64,000 bases of DNA from Actinoallomurus purpureus (GTDB taxonomy: Bacteria > Actinomycetota > Actinomycetes > Streptosporangiales > Streptosporangiaceae), in assembly GCF_024055795.1 (NCBI RefSeq), contig NZ_JAMXMY010000023.1, positions 62,001-126,000 of the forward strand, read 5' to 3'. Position 1 is the first letter of the stretch; each line of letters begins with the position of its first letter. The position numbers and the translations under genes were made by a program. The notes under the pieces were generated by a model. That model worked only from the letters and a program-made list of their open reading frames with translations. It was not told where the DNA came from and searched no databases. Positions 36,239 through 53,383 of this stretch are shown here, piece after piece.

Positions 36239-38473
36239 TCAGGAGGCCATATCGTTGATCTCGTTGTCGGTGAGGACACCCGTGAACGCCTGAACGTCAT
36301 CGATCGCACCAGGCCAGAATTCCGCAGCGGCGCCCTTCTCCTTCGCCGCCCCGATGTGGAATCCGCCGTCGGCATTCCACGGCGCCGCGATCGGGGTCTC
36401 CGCCTCTGAGACGCCGTCGACATACAGGCGGATCTTCTTCGCTGCCGGGTCGTAGACGCCGGCGAGGTGATGCCACTGTCCGTCGAGCACGACCGGGTTC
36501 ACGCTGTGCGCGTGGGTCAGGTCGGCGTCATCGGTGTCGGCCGCCGACATGGTGAACGCCCAGTAGCCGACGCCGTCGAACGCCCGGTAGCCGAGATAGA
36601 AGGCACTGTGGTGGGAACCGTCCTGGGCCAGCACCGTCGCGTTCCCGCTGGGGAGCTTGGCGAGCCGCACCCACGCCGTGACCGTGAAGGCGGTGTCCGT
36701 ACGCACGACCGGGGCGCCCGTCGTGGCATGGTCGTGATTCGCGTCGTCCAGATTGAGTGCACCACCGACATGGCCGCTCGTGGTCCAGGCGGTGGCGGAG
36801 CTGAGCGTGGCGTCGCGGCCTCGCCCGCTGGAGTCGGCCACGTTCGTCCCGGAACCGAGATCTCCGGCCCAGTGCCCCTCCTGGACGACCGGCCGATTCG
36901 CCAGATCCGCTATGCCACCGGTCGACCCCTCGATTCCGTCGGGCTCGGTGCCGTACACGACGCGGTCGTAGACGCGGACGTCGTCGAGGTCTCCTTCGAA
37001 GGGATCGCCGAAGACGCCATCAGCTTTAGCCCGACCGATCTGCAGGGGACCGGTGGCATCCCACGGCGTCGTGAGCGATGTTCTTCGGGACTGCAGGGCA
37101 CCGTTGACGTAGAAGCTCATCTGCCCGGTCGACGCGTCGTAGACACCGGCGAGATGCGTCCAGACGTCGAGCTGGGCGGGTGCGTCCGCGACCACGGGCA
37201 CATCGACCGCACCGTCGGCGTCGGCGGAGTGGCGGTTGAACACCCAGGTCTTGTACGACGGCGAGTAGGAGATCTGGAAGCCGCTGGACCTGCTGCCCGC
37301 CTGGCTCACCGCCGTCGAGGAGTGGCTCGCGTCGGTCAGCCGCGCCCAGACGGACACCGTGAAGTTCTTGTCCGTATGCACCACGGGTGATGCCGTGGCC
37401 GCATGGTCACCGTTGCCGGTGAGCCGCAGCGCCCGATCAATCCGGCCGGCCACTCCCGGGGTGCCGCCGACCAGCGTCGCGGTGTTCCCGCCCACCGAAT
37501 CGGCCAGGGCCGCACCACCGGACTCATCCAGCTTCCAACGACTCAGCGGACCGATCGGCGAGTGGAGGTAGAACTCGAAGACCCCTGGGTTGACACTGCG
37601 ATTGTTCGCGCTGTCGTAGCTGACGACATACAGCCGGAAGACGAAGTCCTGAGTGTAGGGAACCGTGAGTGTCACGCTCGCCGTGCCGTCGGCGCCGGCC
37701 GCCACGGATGGCGCGCCCGCCGCTCCCGCCACCGTGGCGTCCTCCCACGCGTATTGGTACTTGGTGACACCGGTGGCACCGTTCGGCGCGAACGTGAAGG
37801 TCGCTGTTCGCCCGATGGCGTCATTGAATTCTTGCGAGTCGACAGGCTTCAGGTCGGATGTGACGCTGGGTGCCGACTCCGGCGCGGTCCTGTCGACGCT
37901 GTAGTAACACCAGCCGCTCATGGTTCGGTGGTATGCCCTCGCCAGGGTGACCCGCCAGCGGAAGGTCTGCCCGTCGGCGAGCGCAGCGTCCGGCAAGGCC
38001 ATCGAAACCTGGGTACCGGGCTTCGGTCCCGTAATGGTCGTACCGGCGACCTTGTCTCCCCCGGTCGTCCCGCTCCACACTTCGAAGCCGACCTGCGGGC
38101 TCGTCGTATCCAGGATGGTCGCGACCAGTGAGGGCTTGGAATTGCCGACGGCGACCGGTGCCGTCAACGACCCGCAGCCGACCTTCGGGTTCGTCATCCC
38201 CAGCTCGGAGACGCCGTTGGACTCGGATCTCCGTTCCGATACCTCGACCGGTTGACCGGAGGAGCGGGGCTTCCGCAGTCCGGTGACACGAGCGGTTTCC
38301 GATGCCGCATTGGCTACCCGCCCGGAGCGAACCGCCGCGTCGGCGGATCCGCCGGTCACGATCGACAGCAGCGGCATCGCCAGAGCGATCCCGACGCCGC
38401 CCGCCGACCACTTCCGCCAGACGCGTCGACGCCCGGCGCATGCGAATACCCCACGACCCTGTCGGCCGACCAC
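36239..38473 (-). CDS. Secreted protein with two LamG (concanavalin A-like) domains
   Basis: A 744-aa exported protein. Signal peptide: VWRKWSAGGVGIALAMPLLS, ending near GGSADAAV. Residues about 90-320 hold beta-rich, Ig-like segments (SLVATILDTTSPQVGFEVW, QTFRWRVTLARAYHRTMSGW). Then come two LamG modules, each opening with a W-x-L/G-x-x-G pattern: one at about 328-515 (GRIDRALRLTGNGDHAATAS, FTVSVWARLTDASHSSTAVS) and one at about 545-740 (GHVGGALNLDDANHDHATTG, FTVTAWVRLAKLPSGNATVL). The start is GTG 38473 with GGGGGAG 5 bases upstream. Such proteins bind glycans or act as surface adhesins; no catalytic domain is visible. It is monocistronic and divergent from the propeller gene. Confidence 0.82.
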   Translation of the reverse strand: MVGRQGRGVFACAGRRRVWRKWSAGGVGIALAMPLLSIVTGGSADAAVRSGRVANAASETARVTGLRKPRSSGQPVEVSERRSESNGVSELGMTNPKVGCGSLTAPVAVGNSKPSLVATILDTTSPQVGFEVWSGTTGGDKVAGTTITGPKPGTQVSMALPDAALADGQTFRWRVTLARAYHRTMSGWCYYSVDRTAPESAPSVTSDLKPVDSQEFNDAIGRTATFTFAPNGATGVTKYQYAWEDATVAGAAGAPSVAAGADGTASVTLTVPYTQDFVFRLYVVSYDSANNRSVNPGVFEFYLHSPIGPLSRWKLDESGGAALADSVGGNTATLVGGTPGVAGRIDRALRLTGNGDHAATASPVVHTDKNFTVSVWARLTDASHSSTAVSQAGSRSSGFQISYSPSYKTWVFNRHSADADGAVDVPVVADAPAQLDVWTHLAGVYDASTGQMSFYVNGALQSRRTSLTTPWDATGPLQIGRAKADGVFGDPFEGDLDDVRVYDRVVYGTEPDGIEGSTGGIADLANRPVVQEGHWAGDLGSGTNVADSSGRGRDATLSSATAWTTSGHVGGALNLDDANHDHATTGAPVVRTDTAFTVTAWVRLAKLPSGNATVLAQDGSHHSAFYLGYRAFDGVGYWAFTMSAADTDDADLTHAHSVNPVVLDGQWHHLAGVYDPAAKKIRLYVDGVSEAETPIAAPWNADGGFHIGAAKEKGAAAEFWPGAIDDVQAFTGVLTDNEINDMAS

Positions 38474-38904
38474 GTCAGCTCCCCCGTACGTAAAGGATCT
38501 TTACTGTGCGCACGGACGGTAACATTTGAGGTGATGGATTCAACAGCGCCAGACAAGTGACGTAAATCACCTGTCAATCGGTAAACGGGACACGGCCTCC
38601 ACACTGACCTGCAATGACTCGACCCGATCCCCCAACTACATCCAGCAGCACGGCCGGATGCGGTCACGTTCGGTCCCACGCCAGTCCCGACACTTTTCGT
38701 CACTGTCCGTGATATTCGTCGGACGCGCTTCGCCGCGTTTCAACGGAGCGGAGGGCGACTCACAACTCGTCCGTACGTGATCCCGGGGCTTTTAGGGCAC
38801 CTGCGCCGCATGACCGCTTTGCCCCGATAAGATTTGCGCCACGACTCTCTGCACGGAGGGGCGGGTCGGGGTCGCCCTCGGGGCGATGGACGGGAAGGAT
38901 GCGC
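38474..38904. other. Divergent promoter region
   Basis: About 430 bases between the LamG and propeller genes with no ORF of note. It is A/T-richer near 38500..38600, where promoters for the LamG gene are likely. No clear regulator site is seen. Confidence 0.5.
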
Positions 38905-41877
38905 GTGGCCGGGCAGAACACGCCGGACGACGATCCGAACACGGAGCCTCCGTCCGACGATCAGTGGTCCCCTCCTCCCCCGCCGCCTCCGGCGCCCTGG
39001 GGGCCGAATCCGGCGCAGCCTCCGCTGCCGCCCTGGGCCACGCCTCCTCAGCCGCCGTACGGCGCCGCGCCACCGGGCCTGCCCGGTTCGCCGCCGTACG
39101 AGCCGGTGCCGGAAGGCTTCCCCGCCTCACCTCCCCAGGGGCAGCAGAGCCCCTCCGGTCCGCCGCCTGAGACGCCGGGCGAACCAGGCGACGGTGGATG
39201 GCAGGAGCCGCCGGAGACGCGGGAATGGGCGCCGGAACCTCCCGTCGACCCGTGGCGGATCCCGCCGCAGCCGGTATGGGACCCGGCGGTGGAGCCCCCC
39301 CTAACCTGGGCTCCGCCTCCCCAGGTTCCGTACGGCCCGGGCGGGCAGGAACCGCCCGCACCGCATTTCCCCGCCTATGACGCCGGTGGAGGCGACCAGC
39401 CGACCTCCCTGGACCTGCCACCGTCCGCGATGGTTCCGCGGTCCACACCGCGGCCCCCCGGTGATCCCGAGCGGGAGCCCCGGAGTACCGGAGAGAACCA
39501 GAGCGTCCGCTTCGACGAGCCGTGGCGCACGGAGACGCCCGGCCGCGCGGGCCGCCGGGTGCGCCTGCGGCCGATCCTCATCGGCGTCGCGGGTGTCCTG
39601 GTCGCCGGCCTGGTCGCCGGAGGCGTGTACATCCTGACGAGCGGCGGGAAGAAGGAACCGAAGACGCCGGCCGCCGTGCTTGCGGGCCGCATGTTCGCGG
39701 CGGATCCGGCGGCCAAGACCGATGGCCGCGACCAGGAGCTGCTGAACGTCGCGGCGTGGGGTTCGACGGTCGTTGCGATCGGCGGGGAGTTCGACACGGA
39801 TTACCGAGGGGAGTTCTTCGTCTCCACAGACGGCGGCCGCTCGTTCGGGCTGGCGGACGTCCACACCGCCGACGGGCAGGAGCCGCCGTACGGAGACGTC
39901 CCCCGGCGAATCGTCGGGGCGGCCGGTGCCTGGGTAGCTCTCGGCAATTCACCCACCGGCACCGTGGTGTGGACGAGCCACGATGGCAGGTCATGGACGC
40001 GCCAGCCCGACGATGCCGGCTCGTCGTTCAACCGACCGGACCGGGTCGGGCGGATAGTGCGGACGAGCACTGGATTCGTGGCAGTGGGCGACACTTCGGC
40101 GAGGGGCGACTACAGCGACGCGTCGCCGATCGTCTGGCTGTCGCCGGACGGTCGCCGTTGGGACCGTCAGCCCGCGGATCAACTGGGCATCTCTGCCAAG
40201 GAGGGTGCCCTGTCCCTCGTCGATGCGGCGGCCGTTGGGAACACGGTCATCGCGCACGGCTGGAACACCGTCGGCAAATCCTCCCCCTCGGACCTGACGT
40301 GGCGCTCCGCCGACGGCGGGCGAACGTGGGAGCAGGTATCGATCCCGCAGCCGAAGGATGCGAGTGGCCTGGGCATCACCGCCACACCGTCGGGATTCGT
40401 CGCCGCGCGCAACGTCTCCGGGACGACCGGCAAGGGGGACAAGAAGAAACCGGAGTTCTCAGGTGTGGTGCTGTCGTCTCCTGACGCCAAGCAGTGGACG
40501 CAGACGGGGAGCATTCACGTACCCGGCTACTACGGGCTGCAGCGGATCGCCGGGTCCGACCGGGGCCTGGCCGCTCTGGTCGACACCGGAAAGAAGCTCG
40601 CGGTGGTCCGCAGCACGGACGGCAGATCCTGGAACGCCGCCGGCGAGGTGCCCATCGTCAAGGGGCAGGACGTTCAGGGCGTCGCGGCGACCGCCGGCAC
40701 GACGATCGTCGTCGGCCGGGTCTCGGCGGAGGACGGGAACGACGCCCTGCTTCAGGTCCGGGACACGCAGGGACAGAATGTCCCGGTCAATCTCTTCGGC
40801 GTCTCGGGCGGGAACCAACCGGATCGGTCCGTGAGCGCGCTGGCATCCGGCCAAGGGACCACGCTGGCCGTCGGCAGCGTGAACGGCGACGGCGCAATCT
40901 GGCGGTCCCGCGACGGCCGTACGTGGGAGCGGGCGAGCGCGACGGGGCAGGTGCTCGCGCGCCCCGGCCGACAGCGATTGCTCGGAGCCGCTCAGGGCGG
41001 CGCAGGCTGGCTGGCGGTCGGCTACCACGGTCTCAGTCCCAAGCGCCCACTCGTGGTCACGTCCGCCGACGGAGCGACATGGCAGGCCGCGGACGGGAAC
41101 GGTGTCTTCAAGCCGTCCGGTGACGCGCAACTGCTGACCTCGGCGACCGCAGTCGGCAAGGCAGGGTACGTGGTCGTCGGCGCGGATGGCCCGTCAGCAG
41201 CGACGTGGTCCTCCGCCGATCTCAAGTCCTGGTCCCGGGGCAGCGGTTCGGGCAAGGGCGACCTGGACGGCAAGCCGGAGGCGCCCCGGTGGATGGCCGA
41301 TGTCACCGCCGGCTCGTTCGGATACGTCGCCGTGGGCGGTCTGAACGACCCGACCGCCGGGACCGCCGCGAACGGGCGCCCGGTCGTCTGGACGTCATCG
41401 GACGGCAAGACGTGGCGCCTGCAGCAGCTCCCCGTCCCCGGTGGAACGCTTGAGGCCACGTTCGCGCACGTCGCCACCGCGAACGGACAGTTGCTGGCGG
41501 CGGGGACGGCTCGGACGTCGTCGGCCTCGACAGTGTTCGCCTACACGTCATCCGACGGCGGGAAGTCGTGGCAGCAGCTTCGGCTGCCCGGGGCCGATGG
41601 CTCGACCGGCATGGCGTTGACCACGCTGACCGCCACCCTGAAGGGCTTCGTCGTCGCGGCCGGTGCCGGCCGTGGAGGACGCAGTGACGTCTATCTGTGG
41701 ACGATGACGGGCGGCAAGGCCTGGCAGCTGGACAAGCCGCAAGGCCTCGGGTTGTCCGGACGCGGGGATCAATGGCTCACCGGCCTCACGACCAGTGGTC
41801 CCGACCTCCTCGCCGTGGGCGTAACTGCCGACCATCGCGGGGAGCAGCCGATCCTCTGGCGGAGACCCTTGCCGTGA
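38905..41877 (+). CDS. Membrane-anchored Asp-box beta-propeller protein with Pro-rich cytoplasmic tail
   Basis: A 990-aa single-pass protein. Residues 1-210 are extremely Pro/Gly-rich and would be cytoplasmic. A basic stretch (GRAGRRVRLRP) precedes one membrane helix at about 221-243. The outside part (about 250-990) has at least ten Asp-box-like S-x-D-G-x-x-W motifs, such as SHDGRSW, SPDGRRW, SADGGRTW, STDGRSW, SRDGRTW, SADGATW and SSDGKTW, spaced 60-80 residues, which build one or two beta-propellers like those of sialidases and photosystem assembly factors. No sialidase catalytic set is seen. GTG 38905 is preferred to ATG 38899 because GGAAGG lies 6 bases before it. Its stop overlaps the start of the SGNH gene (GTGA), so they work together, probably at the cell surface. 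Confidence 0.8.
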   Translation: MAGQNTPDDDPNTEPPSDDQWSPPPPPPPAPWGPNPAQPPLPPWATPPQPPYGAAPPGLPGSPPYEPVPEGFPASPPQGQQSPSGPPPETPGEPGDGGWQEPPETREWAPEPPVDPWRIPPQPVWDPAVEPPLTWAPPPQVPYGPGGQEPPAPHFPAYDAGGGDQPTSLDLPPSAMVPRSTPRPPGDPEREPRSTGENQSVRFDEPWRTETPGRAGRRVRLRPILIGVAGVLVAGLVAGGVYILTSGGKKEPKTPAAVLAGRMFAADPAAKTDGRDQELLNVAAWGSTVVAIGGEFDTDYRGEFFVSTDGGRSFGLADVHTADGQEPPYGDVPRRIVGAAGAWVALGNSPTGTVVWTSHDGRSWTRQPDDAGSSFNRPDRVGRIVRTSTGFVAVGDTSARGDYSDASPIVWLSPDGRRWDRQPADQLGISAKEGALSLVDAAAVGNTVIAHGWNTVGKSSPSDLTWRSADGGRTWEQVSIPQPKDASGLGITATPSGFVAARNVSGTTGKGDKKKPEFSGVVLSSPDAKQWTQTGSIHVPGYYGLQRIAGSDRGLAALVDTGKKLAVVRSTDGRSWNAAGEVPIVKGQDVQGVAATAGTTIVVGRVSAEDGNDALLQVRDTQGQNVPVNLFGVSGGNQPDRSVSALASGQGTTLAVGSVNGDGAIWRSRDGRTWERASATGQVLARPGRQRLLGAAQGGAGWLAVGYHGLSPKRPLVVTSADGATWQAADGNGVFKPSGDAQLLTSATAVGKAGYVVVGADGPSAATWSSADLKSWSRGSGSGKGDLDGKPEAPRWMADVTAGSFGYVAVGGLNDPTAGTAANGRPVVWTSSDGKTWRLQQLPVPGGTLEATFAHVATANGQLLAAGTARTSSASTVFAYTSSDGGKSWQQLRLPGADGSTGMALTTLTATLKGFVVAAGAGRGGRSDVYLWTMTGGKAWQLDKPQGLGLSGRGDQWLTGLTTSGPDLLAVGVTADHRGEQPILWRRPLP

Positions 41878-43031
41878 CGTTCGCAGGCGCCTCGGCGCAT
41901 GCGTGGGCCACCACCGGTACCGTCCGGTGGTGGCTCGTCCGGCTATGCGGAACGATGCTGCTCCTGGCCATGACGGCGTGCGGCTCGGCGGCATCGCAGA
42001 CGCGGCCGAGCAAGAGCCCGGCTCGCTCGTTCGCCGCCTCCCCACAGAGGACCGTGCGCGTGATGCCGCTGGGCGACTCGATCACCGCGGGGGTCAACGT
42101 CAAGGGCGGTTACCGCAGTGATCTGTGGCAGCTCATGTCCACGGGCGGGCAGAGCGTCGAGTTCGTCGGGTCATTGTCGGCCGGCCCGGTGCAGCTTCCC
42201 GAACGGCGGCACGAAGGGCATCCCGGCTGGGAGATCGGGCAGCTCGACGCTCACGTCGACGCCTGGCTGAGGAGTTACCGGCCCGATGTCGTCCTCCTTC
42301 ACATCGGTACGAATGACGTCCTGCGCAACCGTGACGTGGAACACGCAGCGGACCGGCTCGCGGTGCTGATCGATCACATCACCGGGGCGCTGCCGAACGC
42401 CCAGGTGTACGTCGCGACGATCGCCCCGCTGGCGCGGGCCGGCCTGGACGCGCGAGCGGAGCGGTACAACACCGAGCTGGCGGACGTCGTCCGGACACGA
42501 GCCCTCCAGCGCAGACGCGTCTACCTGGTCGACATGCACGCGGCGTTGACGCGAAGAGACCTTGCGGCGGACGGCATCCATCCGACCAACGGCGGCTACT
42601 CGAAGATGGCGGCGTGCTGGTACGCCGCGCTGCGTTCGGCGCCGATGACACGCTGGGAGGCGGAGGCGGTCGGACGTACCTCGGTCAACGACGGCGAACG
42701 ACTGACCGACCAGAGCGCGTCCGGGAGTGGCAAGGTCGGCTATCTCAACTACGCGGACAGCCATGTGGACTTCTCCATCCAGACGCCGACCACCGGATGG
42801 CATCGGATCTACGTGCGTGCGGCCAACGGGATGAAGGGCACCTGCACTCAGGCGCTTACCGTGAACGGGCGTCCCCAGGGCCGGGTCGACTATCCGAGTT
42901 ACGGCTGGGACCACTGGACGATCACCGCGGTGAGCGCCTGGCTGACCGCCGGCCGCGACGTGCTGCGGTTCTCACACCTGACGTGCGCCGCCGAGATCGA
43001 CTCGATCGACGTGTCGCCTGCCGTCCGCTGA
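41874..43031 (+). CDS. SGNH-hydrolase lipoprotein with C-terminal CBM35-like domain
   Basis: A 385-aa exported esterase. The N-terminus has a membrane stretch ending in a lipobox-like MTAC at about residue 37, so it is probably lipid-anchored. The GDSL/SGNH blocks are complete: MPLGDSITAG (nucleophile Ser), the Gly of block II, HIGTNDVL (Asn) and ADGIHPTNGGYS (Asp and His). The last 120 residues (RWEAEAVGRTSVNDGERLTD to AAEIDSIDVS) look like a CBM35/CBM6 beta-sandwich. Substrates of such pairs are acetylated polysaccharides. It is translationally coupled to the propeller gene by a GTGA overlap, and converges with 4 bases between stops on an acyltransferase gene, which invites an acetylation/deacetylation pairing on the wall glycan. 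Confidence 0.87.
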   Translation: MTFAGASAHAWATTGTVRWWLVRLCGTMLLLAMTACGSAASQTRPSKSPARSFAASPQRTVRVMPLGDSITAGVNVKGGYRSDLWQLMSTGGQSVEFVGSLSAGPVQLPERRHEGHPGWEIGQLDAHVDAWLRSYRPDVVLLHIGTNDVLRNRDVEHAADRLAVLIDHITGALPNAQVYVATIAPLARAGLDARAERYNTELADVVRTRALQRRRVYLVDMHAALTRRDLAADGIHPTNGGYSKMAACWYAALRSAPMTRWEAEAVGRTSVNDGERLTDQSASGSGKVGYLNYADSHVDFSIQTPTTGWHRIYVRAANGMKGTCTQALTVNGRPQGRVDYPSYGWDHWTITAVSAWLTAGRDVLRFSHLTCAAEIDSIDVSPAVR

Positions 43032-43035
43032 CGCC

Positions 43036-44256
43036 CTATCGGTGGGTAGCCGTCTCGGCGGGGCGATCGTCCGGCCGTTCGGAACGCGTGGCGTCGCCTT
43101 CCGCCGTCCGGCGGATCTGTTCGGCCGCCCTCTTGAGCGCTCTGCGGAATCGCCGCTGCACCGGGCGTTCGACCAGCCGGTGGACCAGGTAGGCCGACGT
43201 GAGGGTGGCCGCGACGGCGATGGCCAGCACCGCCCGCGGGTCCATCCTCCAGTCGAGCTGTTTGATCACTACCCGCGAGACCGTCTCGTGCAGCAGATAC
43301 AGCGGATAGGTAAGCGCTCCGGCCAGGGTGAGGCGCTTCCACCGCAACCAGGACAGCCGGTGCGCCGCCACGAGCGCCATGACGACGAAGATGCCGGTAA
43401 TGACTGCGGGAAAGACATACTCGTGCACGCCGGGCCATGCCTGCCACGGAAGGACTTTCCGCAGTGAGTAGTAGACCGCCAGCGCCCAACTGCAGGCGAC
43501 GAACAGCCAGAGCACGATGTTCGAGCCGTACCGGTAGATGAGGAAGAAGGCCATTCCAGCGATGAAGTACGGCGCCCAGTCGGGGATCAGCACCGCCTTG
43601 AGGAGCGCCGAGTTCGCCTCTTCGGCGACGATCCCGGCGAGGAGCCAAACGGCCATGAACGCCACCGACCGACCGTACGTCACCCCCCACCAGACGAAGA
43701 GCGCGATGAGCAGATAGAAGTGGAGTTCGACCCAGAGCGTCCAGTACGGGACCTCAAGATCACCGGCGCCGATTCCCTCCTGGAACATCGTCAGGTTGGG
43801 CAGGAGACGCGTTCGCGTCCCCGGCGGTGTTCCCACCAGACCCGGGATCATGAATAGCGCGAAGGACAGGACGACACTGAACCAGTACGCGGGAAAGAGC
43901 CGGACCAGCCGCGAGATGGCGAATTCCCCCGGGGTCCTCCCCCACACGCTCATCAGGATGACGAAGCCGCTGATCACGAAGAACAGGTTCACGCCGAGAT
44001 GACCGAAGCGCGCGGCCATCGACAGGCTCGGGAAAATGATCCTGGGATCGCCGTTCCACGACCCCTGGGGAACGCCGGTGAAATGGTGCAGCATGACCGC
44101 CACGGCGGCCACGAAACGCAGGAGGTCGAGTTCGCGGAGCCGTCCTCCCTGCCGCTTCGGCTCAGGGGCCGCCTCGGTGCTCTTGGGCACGACGCCGTTG
44201 TCGGAGCCCTCAGCACCCTGTGCGTCGTCCTTCGAGGAGGCGTTCGTCGATGGCAT
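43036..44256 (-). CDS. Acyltransferase 3 (OafA/YrhL-type) membrane O-acyltransferase
   Basis: A 406-aa integral membrane protein with about ten hydrophobic segments. The AT3 signatures are LRELDLLRFVAAVAVMLHHF with the conserved Arg and His, GHLGVNLFFVISGFVI, and FAISRLVRLFPAYWF. Such enzymes add acetyl or succinyl groups to envelope polysaccharides from cytoplasmic acyl-CoA. It is the last gene of the galactan export locus, so the galactan is the likely target. Residues 1-38 and the tail are charged and cytoplasmic. The gene converges closely on the SGNH esterase. Confidence 0.88.
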   Translation of the reverse strand: MPSTNASSKDDAQGAEGSDNGVVPKSTEAAPEPKRQGGRLRELDLLRFVAAVAVMLHHFTGVPQGSWNGDPRIIFPSLSMAARFGHLGVNLFFVISGFVILMSVWGRTPGEFAISRLVRLFPAYWFSVVLSFALFMIPGLVGTPPGTRTRLLPNLTMFQEGIGAGDLEVPYWTLWVELHFYLLIALFVWWGVTYGRSVAFMAVWLLAGIVAEEANSALLKAVLIPDWAPYFIAGMAFFLIYRYGSNIVLWLFVACSWALAVYYSLRKVLPWQAWPGVHEYVFPAVITGIFVVMALVAAHRLSWLRWKRLTLAGALTYPLYLLHETVSRVVIKQLDWRMDPRAVLAIAVAATLTSAYLVHRLVERPVQRRFRRALKRAAEQIRRTAEGDATRSERPDDRPAETATHR

Positions 44257-44262
44257 GGCGGG

Positions 44263-44385
44263 TCAGTCCGTCGCGGTCGCGAAGTAGGGACTGCAGACCT
44301 TTCCGGCCTTGGCGGTGAAGGCGACGACGTACGTGGCGGCGCCCACCGCCGCGTAGACCGGAATCCGGCGCATCGTCTTCTCCAT
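44263..44385 (-). CDS. 40-aa single-span membrane miniprotein
   Basis: ATG 44385, 7 bases after the stop of the ATPase-methyltransferase gene, opens EKTMRRIPVYAAVGAATYVV, then AFTAKAGKVCSPYFATATD, stopping 6 bases before the acyltransferase start. It has a basic N-terminus, one hydrophobic helix and a single Cys. The tight fit between two genes and a GGAA ribosome-site remnant support expression. It could be a small subunit of the exporter or acyltransferase; no family is known to me. Confidence 0.55.
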   Translation of the reverse strand: MEKTMRRIPVYAAVGAATYVVAFTAKAGKVCSPYFATATD

Positions 44386-44391
44386 GGGGCT

Positions 44392-45783
44392 CTATTCCGT
44401 TATCCGCACGATGGCCTGCTCGTTGTCGCGCGTGTAGCCCTCGTAGGTGAACCGCAGGCCGGTCCGCTCGACGTACTCCGTCCATGCGCGGTATTCGTGG
44501 TCCCGCCAGCCGGGGTAGCCGAAGAACTCGTCGAAGACGATGACGCTGCCGGGGCGCAGGCGCGGCCCGGCGTGGTGCAGGACGGTCCGTGCCGAGGAGT
44601 ACAGGTCGGCGTCGACGTGCAGGAAGGCGACCGGCTCGGGGTGCTCCTCGAGGAAACCGGGGAGGGTGTCGTCGAACAGCCCGACGACGAGCTCGGCGCC
44701 GAGCACCTCCGGCGGCTCGTCGACGGCGAAAGTGCCGACGGGGAAGCCCTCCCGCCAGTCCTCCGGGAGTCCCTCGAAGGAGTCGAAGCCGAAGACGTTC
44801 TTGCCGTCGCGGGCGGCGGTGATGGTCCGCAGCGTACGGCCGGAGAAGACGCCGAACTCCAGGGCCATGCCCTCCTGGCCCTCGGCGAGGGACAGGGCGT
44901 GCTCGAGCGTCGCCTGCGGGTCGGCGAACGCCGGGGCGTCGGGCATGATCTCTTCGATCAGCGTGGCCGTCTCGGTGGCAGCGGCCTTCTCCTCCTTGAG
45001 CGTGGCGGCGGCCAGCTTCGCCTCCTCGCGGCCGCGCTGGCGCCGTGCGGCGTCGAGGGGACTGTCCGGCGGGGCGAGGAAGTCGACGGCGTCGGCGATG
45101 TCGCCCTCGAACGCGACCCGGCCCTCCCGCAGGACGACGCCCCGTCCGCAGACCTTCTCCAGGGTGCCCATGTCGTGGGAGACGATGACGAGCGTGCGTC
45201 CCTCGTCGTGGAGTTCCTCGATGCGGTCGAGGCACTTCTTCTGGAAGGGCGGGTCACCGACGGCCAGGACCTCGTCGACGAGGAAGATGTCCGGGTCGGT
45301 GTGGACGGCGACGGCGAAGCCGAGCCGCATGAACATCCCGGAGGAGTAGAACTTCACCTGGGTGTCGAGGAACTTCTCGATCTCGGAGAACGCGACGATC
45401 TCGTCGTACTTCGCCTCGGTCTCCGCCTTGCTCATCCCGAGGATCGCGGCGTTGAGGAAGATGTTCTCCCGGCCGGTCAGGTCCGGGTGCAGGCCCGCAC
45501 CGACCTCGATCAGGCCCGCGACCCTGCCGCGGACGCCGACCGAGCCGCCGTCGGGCTGCATGACGCCGGAGATCAGCTTGAGGAGGGTGCTCTTGCCCGA
45601 TCCGTTGAGGCCCATGAGGGCGAGCGACTCGCCCTGCTCGACGGTCACGGACACCTCGTCGAGCGCCGTGAACCGCTCGGACAGGCTCTGGCGCCGCGCG
45701 GCGCGCACGGTCATCTCCTTGATGGAGTGCGCGTGGCGCAGCGTGAAGCGCTTGGTCACACCGTCGACGACGATTGATTCCAT
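44392..45783 (-). CDS. Polysaccharide ABC-exporter ATPase fused to a TylF-like O-methyltransferase
   Basis: A 463-aa fusion. Residues 1-250 are a Wzt/TagH-type ATPase: Walker A GLNGSGKST (58-66), signature YSSGMFMRLGF, Walker B DIFLVDEVLAVGD and the H-loop IVSHDMGTL. A charged linker (about 258-285) leads to a class I methyltransferase of the TylF/MycF family, with SAM-binding EFGVFSGRTL, GFDSFEGLPEDW, the metal site HVDADLYSSA and IVFDEFFGYPGW. Normal Wzt ATPases either end here or carry a carbohydrate-binding domain. A methyltransferase in that place suggests it methylates the end of the glycan while it is exported. The permease gene ends 3 bases upstream of its ATG. Family calls are firm; the chain-capping role is inference. 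Confidence 0.9.
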   Translation of the reverse strand: MESIVVDGVTKRFTLRHAHSIKEMTVRAARRQSLSERFTALDEVSVTVEQGESLALMGLNGSGKSTLLKLISGVMQPDGGSVGVRGRVAGLIEVGAGLHPDLTGRENIFLNAAILGMSKAETEAKYDEIVAFSEIEKFLDTQVKFYSSGMFMRLGFAVAVHTDPDIFLVDEVLAVGDPPFQKKCLDRIEELHDEGRTLVIVSHDMGTLEKVCGRGVVLREGRVAFEGDIADAVDFLAPPDSPLDAARRQRGREEAKLAAATLKEEKAAATETATLIEEIMPDAPAFADPQATLEHALSLAEGQEGMALEFGVFSGRTLRTITAARDGKNVFGFDSFEGLPEDWREGFPVGTFAVDEPPEVLGAELVVGLFDDTLPGFLEEHPEPVAFLHVDADLYSSARTVLHHAGPRLRPGSVIVFDEFFGYPGWRDHEYRAWTEYVERTGLRFTYEGYTRDNEQAIVRITE

Positions 45784-45785
45784 CT

Positions 45786-46678
45786 CTAGAGCTCCTGGGC
45801 GAACCGCCGCTGAAGGCGGAAGAAGACCATCTGCGCGAGCCCGAGCAGCACGACGGCGGCCAGCAGGCTCGCCAGCCCCCGTACGGTCAGGTGGTCGGGG
45901 AACGCGTGCCTGCCGTCGGGGAACGTCGGGGTGCCGTCCGGCAGCTCGGCCTTGTGCGGATTGGCGGGCCACCAGAACGCCCGCTGGAACAGCAGCGTCG
46001 CCGTCGCGAGGGGGTTGGCGAGGTAGATCTGCAGGCCGAGGCCGTTCCCGGTGGCCTCCTGCACGGCCGTCCACGGGTAGATCATCGGGACGGTCCACGG
46101 GATGACGATGTTGAGGATGTCGACGACCTGCCCGAAGTCACGGAAGAACACGTTGATCGCGGCGAACAGCAGGCCGAACGCCAGTCCGAGAACGGCGACG
46201 ATCGCGAAGCCGAGCGCCATCGACCCGAAACCGAGCGCGGAGGGCGTCCATCCCCCGACCAGTGCGCCGATCCACAGGATGGCCAGCCCGGGCAGCATGT
46301 GCACCGCCGACACCAGAGCGGACGAGGCCGGGAACATCTCGCGGGGCAGATAGATCTTCTGGACGAGCGGCGCGTTCCCGATGACGGACCAGGTGCTGGT
46401 GATCAGCGTCTCGGTGAAGAAGCTGATCACCACCATGCCGGAGAACAGGAACACCGGGTAGCCGGGGATCGCCTTACTCATCTTGAGGAAGACGCCGACG
46501 ACGAAGAAGTAGACCGCGAAGCTGACGGCGGGGCGGACGTACGACCAGCCGAGACCGAGCAGGGACCCCTGGTAGCGGCTGCGCAGCTCCCGGCGGACGA
46601 GCAGACGCAGCAGGTAACGCCGCCGGGCCACCTCCAGCAGGCCGCCGCCGCGGCCGGGGGCGGTCAGCGGCGGTACCG

Positions 46679-46682
<4 letters not shown>
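45786..46682 (-). CDS. Polysaccharide ABC-exporter permease (Wzm/TagG-like)
   Basis: A 298-aa ABC-2 type permease with about six hydrophobic helices. The family features are YLLRLLVRRELRSRYQGSLL near the start, LGWSYVRPAVSFAVYFFVVG, and the later NIVIPWTVPMIYPW. It would work with the fused ATPase to move a lipid-linked glycan across the membrane. Start GTG 46682 overlaps the GlfT2 stop (GTGA), showing translational coupling with galactan synthesis. Confidence 0.9.
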
Positions 46683-50779
<4,097 letters not shown>

Positions 50780-50892
50780 GCGTCCGTCCTGTTTGCCACC
50801 CCCGTGGCTTCGCCCCACCACCCCCCGGTACGGAGGGGGAAGCGATGAGGCCAGTGGGGCGAAATGCATCTTATGCTACTTTTGCGGGCTTC

Positions 50893-51837
50893 ATGCGCGC
50901 GTCTTACTCCCACCGACTCGGCGATAACGTGAGGTGTCAGCTGAAAGACGCCCAAATCGCCGCCGTGGTTGTCACGCACGACCGGCGCGATCTTCTGACC
51001 GAGGCGCTGACCGCCCTCCTCTACGGCCAGACACGGCCGCCCGACACGATCGTGGTCGTCGACAACGCCTCCTCCGACGGAACCCCCCACCTGGTCCGTG
51101 AACGCTTCCCGGCCGTCCGTCTGCTGGAACTCCCCCGCAACACCGGCGGGGCGGGTGGGTTCGCCGCGGGCATCGCCCACGCCCTCGACCTGGGCGCGGA
51201 CGCGCTGTGGCTGATGGACGACGACACGGTGCCCGAGCCGCATGCCCTGGCCGCCCTGCTGGCGGCGCGCGACCGGGGACGGGACGAGCGCGGGCGGCCG
51301 CCCGCGCTCGTCGCCAGCCGAGTCGTCTGGACCGACGGCCGCGACCACCCGATGAACACCCCCCGTTCCCGGCCGTCGGCCGTCCCCGGGTGCGCCCGGA
51401 TCCGCTCGGCGTCGTTCGTGTCGGTGCTGGTCGACGCCGAGGCCGTACGGGAACGAGGGCTGCCGATCGCCGACTACTTCCTGTGGAACGACGACTTCGA
51501 GTTCACGCTGCGGCTGCTTCGGGGGCGCGCCGGCCTCCTGTGCCGGGACAGCGTCGTCGTGCACCGGACCGCCTCCCCCGCCTTCGACCCGGGGCGGCGG
51601 TTCTTCTACGAGGTGCGCAACAAGGTGTGGCTGTTCACCCGCAGCCGCTGTCTCCGCCCCGGCGAACGCCTGCTCTACGCCGGCGCGACGGCGCGCCGCT
51701 GGGCCCGTACGCTCGCCGGCTCGGCCGACCGGGCGGCCCTGCTGCGCGCGCTGGGCCGGGGACTCTGGGCGGGCCTGCGCTCCGGTCCCCGGCCCAACGA
51801 GGCCGTGCTCACTTACAGGGGTTCTGCGTCGCGTTGA
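50893..51837 (+). CDS. GlfT1-like initiating galactofuranosyltransferase (GT2)
   Basis: A 314-aa GT2 protein that resembles mycobacterial GlfT1, which adds the first galactofuranoses to the linker. Shared features are AAVVVTHDRRDLL, QTRPPDTIVVVDNAS, RNTGGAGGFAAGIAHAL, ADALWLMDDDTVPEP, NDDFEFTLRLL and RRFFYEVRNKVWLF. The ATG at 50893 gives a very short leader after a TATGCT -10-like box at 50873; GTG 50929 is an alternative start. Its 3' end overlaps the convergent LCP gene by 29 bases. Confidence 0.8.
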   Translation: MRASYSHRLGDNVRCQLKDAQIAAVVVTHDRRDLLTEALTALLYGQTRPPDTIVVVDNASSDGTPHLVRERFPAVRLLELPRNTGGAGGFAAGIAHALDLGADALWLMDDDTVPEPHALAALLAARDRGRDERGRPPALVASRVVWTDGRDHPMNTPRSRPSAVPGCARIRSASFVSVLVDAEAVRERGLPIADYFLWNDDFEFTLRLLRGRAGLLCRDSVVVHRTASPAFDPGRRFFYEVRNKVWLFTRSRCLRPGERLLYAGATARRWARTLAGSADRAALLRALGRGLWAGLRSGPRPNEAVLTYRGSASR

Positions 51838-53383
51838 TCTCCCCGTCGACCTTGGGGATGTCCGGGGACTTCACCTGCACGCCCTCGGGACCGGCCACCA
51901 GCGAGACGGTGCCCGGCGCGACGGACTTGTCGGCGGCGATGACGACGCCCGGGACGGCGACCGCGAGGGCGTCGGCGAAGCGCTCGGCGCCCGTCCCGTA
52001 GAGGATCCTGGTCTGCCGCTGCGCGGGGCCCTTCGCCGCCGTGACGTGGAAGCCCTGGGCCTTCAGGTCCTTCACGGCCTTCTTCGGCGCGTTCACCGCG
52101 GTGACCCTGACCTCGTCCGGCTTCGGCGCCGCCGGCTTGGACGGCTCCGGCTTGGGCGCGGGCAGGTCGTCGTCCTTGCGGATGGCCTCGAACAGCGGGC
52201 CGGCCTGGGACATGTCCCACTGGACCCGGTTGGGGTCCTTGGGGTACGTCTGCGTCGGCACGGTGACGAACCGGACGGTGCCCGCGCTCATCCCCTTCAG
52301 GCTCGTCGCGAGCTTCTTCATCGCGGACACGCTGAACTCGTCGTCGGTGGCGATCGACTTGGTCACGGCGTTCAGGAACTTGTAGGCGCGGGTCGGGTCG
52401 GTCAGCATGTCCTGGCTCGTGGCCTTCTTGACCACGGAGGCCATGAACTTCTGCTGCCGCTGGATGCGCTCCAGGTCCGAGCCGTCGCCGAGGCCGTAGC
52501 GGGTGCGGACGTACCCCAGCGCGTCGTTCCCCTTGACGACCTGGCGGCCCGCCTTCAGGGACAGGTTTGCGCGCGGGTCGTTGACCGCCTGCGGCACGCA
52601 GATCTCCACGCCGCCCAGCGCGTCGACGACCCGCTTGAACCCGGCGAAGTCGATCTTGACGTAGTGGTCGATGTGGATGTCCGTGTTCGACTCGATCATC
52701 TTCCAGGTGCACGTCGCCCCGGCGTAGGCGAACGCCGCGTTGAGCATGCCGAAGAAGGCGGGGACCGTACCGCCGCGCTTCTTCCTGCACTCCGGCACGT
52801 GGACCATGGAGTCGCGGGGGAAGCTGACCGCGACCGCGCGGTCCCGGTTCGGGGACAGGTGCAGCAGGATCGTCGTGTCCGAACGCTCCCCGCTGATGTC
52901 CGGCGACCAGTACTGCTTGTTCTCCCCGTCCCGGGAGTCGGAGCCGAGCAGCAGGATGTTCATCGACTTGTTCAGCTTCGCCGGGCGGCTGGTGCCCAGC
53001 TGCTGCTGGTCGACGTGCTCCTTGTGGATGTTGCCCTGCAGCTTCTCGTACAGGCCGAACGCCGTGCCGCCCGCCACGACGAGCGCCACCGCGACCCCGG
53101 CGGCGACCCAGCGCACGGTGCGCCGGCCGCGGCGGCGCGCGGCCTCCGGCGCGGGCGTGCCCTCGGCCGACCCCGGAGAGCCCCCCGGCGCGGACGCGTC
53201 CTCGACCGGCCCCGGGGAGTCCCCCGGCGCGGGCGCGTCCTCACCGCCGGCCTCACCGGCCTGTTCTTCCTTCTCGCCCCGTCGCGTCTCCGGGGCCGGC
53301 GCGTCGTCCGCCGGGCCGTCGGAGTCCGGCGCCTTCGGCGACGCGTTCTCCGGCGTCACGTCGTCAGCGTCGTTGTCGGCCAT
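51809..53383 (-). CDS. LytR-CpsA-Psr (LCP) glycopolymer ligase with LytR_C domain
   Basis: A 524-aa membrane-anchored ligase that moves finished glycopolymers from their lipid carrier to peptidoglycan. An acidic, Pro-rich cytoplasmic tail (1-88) precedes one helix (about 92-112). The LCP domain (about 140-310) has LLLGSDSRDGENK, SDTTILLHLSPNRDRA, VSFPRDSMVHVP and RTRYGLGDGSDLERIQRQQK, the Arg/Asp residues that bind pyrophosphate. LytR_C follows at about 425-505. It would attach the galactan made by this locus. The gene converges on the GlfT1-like gene with 29 bases of overlap. Confidence 0.92.
   Translation of the reverse strand: MADNDADDVTPENASPKAPDSDGPADDAPAPETRRGEKEEQAGEAGGEDAPAPGDSPGPVEDASAPGGSPGSAEGTPAPEAARRRGRRTVRWVAAGVAVALVVAGGTAFGLYEKLQGNIHKEHVDQQQLGTSRPAKLNKSMNILLLGSDSRDGENKQYWSPDISGERSDTTILLHLSPNRDRAVAVSFPRDSMVHVPECRKKRGGTVPAFFGMLNAAFAYAGATCTWKMIESNTDIHIDHYVKIDFAGFKRVVDALGGVEICVPQAVNDPRANLSLKAGRQVVKGNDALGYVRTRYGLGDGSDLERIQRQQKFMASVVKKATSQDMLTDPTRAYKFLNAVTKSIATDDEFSVSAMKKLATSLKGMSAGTVRFVTVPTQTYPKDPNRVQWDMSQAGPLFEAIRKDDDLPAPKPEPSKPAAPKPDEVRVTAVNAPKKAVKDLKAQGFHVTAAKGPAQRQTRILYGTGAERFADALAVAVPGVVIAADKSVAPGTVSLVAGPEGVQVKSPDIPKVDGEINATQNPCK

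Follow-up and report, generated by a model that had tools for sequence, protein, structure and literature searches.

A predicted exporter ATPase of Actinoallomurus carrying a C-terminal TylF-type O-methyltransferase domain in a putative galactofuranan locus

The window analyzed here is a 64,000-nucleotide stretch of the Actinoallomurus purpureus genome (contig NZ_JAMXMY010000023.1, positions 62,001 to 126,000), and it contains a run of overlapping or touching genes that encode, in order, a UDP-galactopyranose mutase (Glf), a GlfT2-like protein, an ABC-2 permease and, as the last gene, a fusion of a predicted exporter ATPase to a predicted O-methyltransferase (MT). A membrane acyltransferase gene lies downstream of the fusion gene, and genes for two family 2 glycosyltransferases and a LytR-CpsA-Psr (LCP) transferase lie upstream. 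The features are:

43036–44256, minus strand: membrane acyltransferase (Pfam Acyl_transf_3, 89.5 bits, cut-off 31), a separate gene in the window.
44392–45783, minus strand: fusion coding sequence, ATG to TAA, 463 aa, comprising an exporter ATPase, a linker and a TylF-type O-methyltransferase.
44395–44934, minus strand: O-methyltransferase region of the fusion, residues 284-463 (Pfam Methyltransf_24 and TylF).
44935–45078, minus strand: linker of the fusion, residues 236-283, rich in Ala, Glu, Arg and Lys, and the least conserved part by dN/dS and identity.
45079–45783, minus strand: ATPase domain of the fusion, residues 1-235 (Pfam ABC_tran; best NCBIfam models of TagH/Wzt type).
45786–46682, minus strand: ABC-2 permease, in the Wzm role (Pfam ABC2_membrane, 28.6 bits, cut-off 26.9).
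46679–48787, minus strand: GlfT2-like galactofuranan polymerase (Pfam GlfT2_domain3 and Glft2_N).
48784–49962, minus strand: UDP-galactopyranose mutase Glf (TIGR00031, 328 bits, cut-off 303.75).
49910–50869, minus strand: family 2 glycosyltransferase (Pfam Glycos_transf_2), given as the longest open reading frame with a true start perhaps later; its place is kept in relatives.
50845–51837, plus strand: divergent family 2 glycosyltransferase (Pfam Glycos_transf_2), kept in relatives.
51809–53383, minus strand: LCP glycopolymer transferase (TIGR00350, 157 bits, above the cut-off, and Pfam), kept in relatives.

The fusion gene (44392-45783, minus strand) has no internal stop codon and translates to 463 residues. 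The first-pass annotation had proposed that a single frame at exactly these coordinates joins a Wzt-like ATPase to a TylF-like methyltransferase, and both the translation and the Pfam matches bear this out. ABC_tran matches residues 41-172 (74.6 bits, cut-off 25), and the region contains segments that we take to be the Walker A (GLNGSGKS, residues 58-65), signature (YSSGM), Walker B (IFLVDE) and H-loop (SHD) motifs; with these and an ABC-2 permease partner in the same gene run, the N-terminal part has the properties of a Wzt/TagH-type exporter ATPase. It scores below the equivalog cut-offs both of the NCBIfam galactan_ABC_ATP model for the mycobacterial-type Wzt (159.1 bits, cut-off 400) and of the TagH model for the teichoic acid exporter (163.8 bits, cut-off 320). 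In the C-terminal part Methyltransf_24 matches residues 308-419 (44.7 bits, cut-off 26.3) and TylF matches residues 365-428 (36.7 bits, cut-off 23), which makes it a member of the TylF family, and an EFGV loop and HVDADLY and VFDE motifs are present. A Pfam search of the fusion protein at a threshold of 0.001 gave no match to the carbohydrate-binding domain Wzt_C (PF14524), and no kinase family is among its five matches. Charged tails are found also on the ATPases of related loci that have no MT.

The permease gene, which is kept in relatives, ends two bases before the fusion start, and the GlfT2-like gene overlaps the permease start by 4 bases. The GlfT2-like protein matches the solved galactofuranosyltransferase 9dtp at 472 bits and GlfT2 4fix at 455 bits, and the NCBIfam, Pfam and structure-database matches confirm that a UDP-galactopyranose mutase and a GlfT2 homologue adjoin the fusion. 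The LCP enzyme is likely to be the ligase of the polymer to peptidoglycan, and the locus as a whole appears to provide for the synthesis, export and anchoring of a galactofuranan. The genome has one GlfT2-type match. It has no match to the PF04602 arabinosyltransferase, for which the same search was positive in one of 14 control genomes (Corynebacterium glutamicum), and the polymer is therefore probably not an arabinogalactan of the mycobacterial type.

The full-length fusion is present in six of eight Actinoallomurus genomes, our own included, with 80-91% identity in five of the seven others; in the same search G007 is matched over the ATPase only, and G004 has no match to the fusion at 1e-60. 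With a full-length copy in five of the seven other Actinoallomurus genomes, the fusion is very unlikely to be a product of chance or of faulty assembly. Comparison of the window with these five genomes gives dN/dS values of 0.10-0.15 for the ATPase (residues 1-235), 0.25-0.38 for the MT (284-463) and 0.35-0.80 for the linker (236-283; 50-81% identity), values consistent with maintenance of both domains and a less constrained linker. A tree built on four genes of the locus in 11 genomes places those with the fusion together (88/92, which is not strong) with G007 as their sister, and a single gain by fusion would fit best, with a loss in G007 possible. The locus occurs without the MT in G007, G055, G008 and G095, and since relatives carry it in this form, methylation would be no general requirement for this exporter.

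The fused genomes differ in how the MT meets the acyltransferase. The two genes are apart in the window and in G003, and in G002 and G005 a stop codon 6-9 bases past the MT immediately precedes the acyltransferase. In G001 and G006 no stop codon separates the two, and the frame extends to 869 and 879 residues. These two genomes group together on the four-gene locus tree (100/99), and one triple-fusion event therefore suffices; it is possible that their acyltransferase has an internal start, but the protein upstream would even then lack a stop codon ahead of the acyltransferase.

Outside the genus, no match among 200 genomes of the family contains both domains; the match in G069 spans residues 13-370 of the fusion, yet there is no MT match at its locus. 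The MT alone yields 19 matches at 1e-15 in 297 family genomes, six of them in the genus of the window (74-100% identity) and the other 13 at 37-43%. Among the matches listed from 396 genomes of the phylum, only the window has both domains, with no second independent ATPase-MT fusion. The related actinobacterial ATPase of G564 (locus L166; match 6-395) matches Wzt_C weakly, at 22.1 bits with a cut-off of 30.4, in the C-terminal position that the MT takes in Actinoallomurus, and G488, which matches residues 3-317 of the fusion, has no MT match in its locus. None of 149 matching plasmid records has one place covering 80% of the fusion query.

The first-pass annotation had suggested a search for the same domain pair beside GlfT2 or Glf genes in other actinobacteria; no fusion was found outside the genus in these searches, and most of the best stand-alone relatives of the MT lie near galactan genes. 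Seven aligned MT domains, used to scan a collection of species genomes, matched 451 stretches and gave 295 relatives, and we tallied the best 80 of these; four are the fused forms of Actinoallomurus and 76 are from outside the genus, mainly from Pseudonocardiaceae, Rhodococcus and Prescottella, and Geodermatophilaceae. None of these 76 stand-alone loci has an ATPase match in the frame of the MT. Within flanks of up to 10 kb, some of them cut by contig ends, and with genes labelled by their best tblastn reference, 59 of the 76 loci (best 80 of 295) have one or more of Wzm, Wzt, GlfT1, GlfT2, a GlfT2 paralogue and Glf. Wzm, Wzt and GlfT1, the mycobacterial-type exporter set, occur together at 48 of the 76, the GlfT2 paralogue also at 48, all four of these at 37, and GlfT2 and Glf at 13 each. 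The remaining 17 loci have no galactan gene in the flank; 11 of these are from Pseudonocardia, and in one annotated Pseudonocardia locus (L101) the MT lies among the housekeeping genes uvrC, whiA, gap, pgk and rbpA.

Counts from the 76 loci are not independent, since the loci are related to each other; nonetheless, several different gene arrangements seem to point the same way. The order is MT-Wzm-Wzt-GlfT1 in Saccharothrix and Wzm-Wzt-GlfT1-MT in Rhodococcus, and in several Blastococcus and in Saccharopolyspora the MT is beside the GlfT2 paralogue without an exporter. NCBIfam scores at one Saccharothrix locus pass the cut-offs for Wzm (436.8 bits, cut-off 380), Wzt (461.6, cut-off 400) and GlfT1 (505.6, cut-off 330); at one Rhodococcoides fascians locus GlfT1 passes (514.2, cut-off 330) and Wzt scores 388.9, under the cut-off of 400, probably through a late start call. 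The GlfT2 paralogues of three MT loci have both Pfam GlfT2 domains. The exporter ATPases of the stand-alone MT loci are 31-39% identical to the window ATPase (matches above 70 bits, which may include unrelated ATPases). The near relatives of the MT thus appear to be tied to one exporter lineage and the fused MT to another, with galactofuranan enzymes as the common factor. Because the MT goes with two exporter lineages that share these enzymes, it would be expected to act on the galactan or its precursor, and we regard this as the strongest argument for such a substrate.

A separate sample comes from the f4 family, where 37 of 151 genomes have a stand-alone MT and 31 of these 37 have a match to the GlfT2 paralogue within 3 kb of it; in the other six the paralogue match is absent (four genomes), on another contig (one) or far away (one). 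The paralogue query matched 147 of the 151 genomes, a figure that includes true GlfT2. Dependence of the MT on the paralogue was considered and rejected, with the paralogue not within 3 kb in 6 of the 37 f4 genomes and our own genome having a single GlfT2-type match. Neither the paralogue nor a PF04602 enzyme is needed beside the MT, because our genome has neither.

In an even sample of the phylum (396 genomes), six genomes besides our own have an MT match at 1e-28, and only one of these (G574) has galactan genes around it. Four of the other five MTs are 41-47% identical to that of the window; the fifth, in G435, is 62% identical and lies elsewhere in a genome that does have a GlfT2-permease-ATPase locus. 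The link between MT and galactan genes thus appears to be strong among near relatives and is not seen among distant ones.

The MT profile matches the structurally determined CalS11, MycF and NovP, of which CalS11, deposited as a TDP-rhamnose 3'-O-methyltransferase, is the closest solved relative, and D-x-D-L-Y and F-D-E motifs are common to CalS11 and the fused MT. Residues D391, D393, D418 and E419 of the fusion are invariant in 35 aligned MT rows (of 81 available) and are presumably the conserved acidic catalytic or metal-binding residues of the TylF family. An active sugar O-methyltransferase is thus expected from the sequence. In an MT tree of 89 rows the six fused forms are a single clade (100/98); the backbone around this clade lacks resolution, and many of the rows close to it are from Pseudonocardiaceae. 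The MT probably came to Actinoallomurus from elsewhere, and the simplest reading would be transfer of a stand-alone MT into the genus followed by fusion.

The stand-alone MTs have a charged N-terminal arm of 30-79 residues between two motifs (54 of 79 arms scored by pattern), with 99 Pro or Gly among the 3263 residues of the 54 scored arms; in the MT domain these two residues make up a mean fraction of 0.157. A coiled-coil ruler in these arms was considered, but the heptad test is mostly negative, with periodicity above that of shuffled sequences (p<0.05) in 6 of the 54 scored arms (25 of the 79 being unscored by the pattern), and a coiled coil is not claimed. In the fusion the ATPase and the linker of about 48 residues stand where the arm is in stand-alone MTs, and positioning of the MT may for this reason have passed to the exporter.

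Taken together, these comparisons make it probable that the window encodes a galactofuranan-exporter ATPase that gained a galactan-associated O-methyltransferase as its C-terminal domain, probably once within Actinoallomurus. We regard the conserved domain architecture as real, and the near members of the MT family as linked to actinobacterial galactan loci. Action of the MT on the galactan, as the first-pass annotation supposed, finds indirect support in the loci of its near relatives and in its fusion to an exporter ATPase, though not in the even phylum sample, with galactan genes around one MT of six; because 59 of the 76 best outside-genus relatives (best 80 of 295) are near galactan genes and the MT is joined to the ATPase of an exporter, it probably acts on the galactan or its lipid-linked precursor. 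Glf would make UDP-Galf, from which GlfT2 would polymerise a lipid-linked galactofuranan at the inner face of the membrane; the MT, carried by the exporter, would methylate chain hydroxyls on arrival of the chain at the transporter or during its stay there, and the permease-ATPase pair would export the chain. Acylation by the acyltransferase is possible, and attachment of the polymer to peptidoglycan would fall to the LCP enzyme. We infer galactan as the substrate, the exporter on the cytoplasmic side as the place of methylation, and the wall as the place of anchoring, and we know of no methyl groups on this galactan. With the MT on the same chain as the exporter ATPase, galactan methylation and export may be coupled.

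As to the role of the methyl groups, a plausible reading, to which we give somewhat less than an even chance, is that they decorate internal or side positions of the galactan and alter surface properties, with the fusion merely keeping the MT near its substrate. The patchy occurrence of the MT fits this reading, both in the f4 family (37 of 151 genomes) and in the 297 genomes of the window's family, where the only six MT matches above 43% identity are all in one genus, as does the occurrence of the exporter locus without it; the adjoining acyltransferase, which is in the MT frame in two genomes, suggests a decoration module. The MT is joined to the ATPase and not to the polymerase, however, which favours a role at the export step.

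Such a role would be most direct if the methyl group were a non-reducing-end cap that stops GlfT2, with the fused ATPase both writing and reading the cap and so setting length and export, but we consider this unlikely. Precedents for chain-ending methyl caps and for recognition of chain ends by Wzt are described in the available parts of three reports (PMC11231755, PMC2943079, PMC10629545), the MT is fused directly to the ATPase, and the portion available of PMC10951656 puts forward, as a proposal without demonstration, that an interaction of GlfT2 with the exporter controls mycobacterial galactan size. Against this, the fusion has no Pfam match to Wzt_C or another sugar-binding domain, the same exporter locus lacks an MT in relatives, and in Vibrio cholerae O1 the terminal methyl group is dispensable for export by a transporter without a binding module (available part of PMC10629545). 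An extended form of the idea, which we hold to be rather doubtful, makes the ATPase writer and reader in one: the MT would bind the growing end, methylate it, stay bound and hand the chain on for transport, so taking the place of the separate terminator and the binding module known from Gram-negative systems. In the two genomes where the acyltransferase is joined to it, a single polypeptide would serve modification, export and acylation, and galactan methylation would occur, so far unrecognised, also in Rhodococcus, Pseudonocardiaceae and Geodermatophilaceae.

It is improbable that the MT acts on a lipid-linked primer, a linker sugar or a nucleotide sugar in place of galactan residues. A nucleotide sugar or another glycan could be the substrate, since the solved relatives of the MT act on small sugars (TDP-rhamnose for CalS11, the closest of them), and five of the six relatives in the even phylum sample lie apart from galactan genes; the nearer relatives, though, sit with two exporter lineages whose common neighbours are Galf enzymes. 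That the fusion is a functionless accident, tolerated since the ATPase still works, is very improbable despite the fast evolution of the linker and the two genomes of the genus without an MT, for the MT has dN/dS values of 0.25-0.38 in five comparisons, its acidic motif residues are invariant and it is kept in six genomes. Madurose, which is 3-O-methylgalactose, was considered as the product and set aside as a guess, the open-access literature having nothing usable on madurose or wall sugars of Actinoallomurus; a source available in part reports Thermomonospora curvata to be without madurose.

The TylF, MycF, NovP and CalS11 enzymes are of the same family as the fused MT, which shares its D-x-D-L-Y and F-D-E motifs with CalS11, and to our knowledge the characterized ones have antibiotic or nucleotide sugars as substrates, and none of them is fused to a transporter. 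Among polysaccharide systems, WbdD and Wzm-Wzt of Escherichia coli O9a, with a terminal methyl-phosphate, are a case where an MT and an ABC exporter likewise serve one lipid-linked polysaccharide and end modification goes with export (PMC11231755, PMC10629545 and PMC3482155, in part); there the MT is on a separate protein with a kinase and the ATPase has a binding module, whereas here the MT is on the ATPase and no binding domain was found. In the precedents, as far as the parts available go (PMC11231755, PMC2943079, PMC10629545), it is a separate terminator together with a binding module that ties end modification to export, and the Pfam search of the fusion protein gave neither of these. WsaE of Geobacillus stearothermophilus (PMC2943079, in part) similarly has a sugar O-methyltransferase within a multidomain assembly protein, in that case fused to two glycosyltransferases and not to an exporter ATPase, and Wzt is predicted there to bind the methylated chain. 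The mycobacterial-type Wzm-Wzt, with GlfT1 and GlfT2, exports a lipid-linked galactofuranan made by GlfT2 (PMC10951656, in part), as proposed here; the window ATPase is of another lineage (159 bits against a cut-off of 400) and our genome has no PF04602 match.

How actinobacteria control the length of the cell-wall galactan is unsettled, with the interaction of GlfT2 and exporter only proposed for mycobacteria in the available part of PMC10951656, and a natural fusion of exporter ATPase and MT offers a direct handle on this question. An enzyme that is fused in Actinoallomurus is a separate gene beside galactan genes in many other actinobacteria. The fusion points to a possible uncharacterised modification of galactan, and the triple fusion suggests that a single machine can serve both modification and export. 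Natural O-methyl groups are hidden by methylation analysis with plain methyl iodide, and this may be one reason why galactan methylation could have been overlooked. In the open-access literature searched, with subscription journals mostly outside the search, we found no report of a methylated actinobacterial galactan and no description of a galactan methyltransferase or of an ATPase-MT fusion in a polysaccharide exporter, which does not prove the architecture to be novel.

Several minor observations were made in and around these loci. The mobilizable-type Rhodococcus plasmid pDF02 (L038) has a stand-alone MT, 60% identical to the fused domain, adjoining a GlfT2-like gene and two GT87 genes, and a plasmid of this kind is a conceivable vehicle for MT transfer. 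The GlfT2 paralogue at L143:10610-12499, with PF17994 and PF19320 both present, is distinct from GlfT2 and widespread among f4 genomes, so that there may be a third galactofuranosyltransferase; in genus g71 only one GlfT2-type match was counted in nine sampled genomes. In the window, a 40-codon open reading frame with a hydrophobic stretch (44263-44385, minus strand) lies between the fusion and the acyltransferase, and may be a small membrane peptide or noise. The MT-less locus of G007 (L058) also has no match to the acyltransferase and GDSL genes that are found there in L059-L066. Past the locus, on the opposite strand, are genes for a large BNR-repeat protein and a GDSL lipase (38899-43031, plus strand), kept in relatives both with and without the MT, and near it a gene (36239-38473, minus strand) encodes a protein with two Laminin_G_3 (concanavalin-like) stretches.
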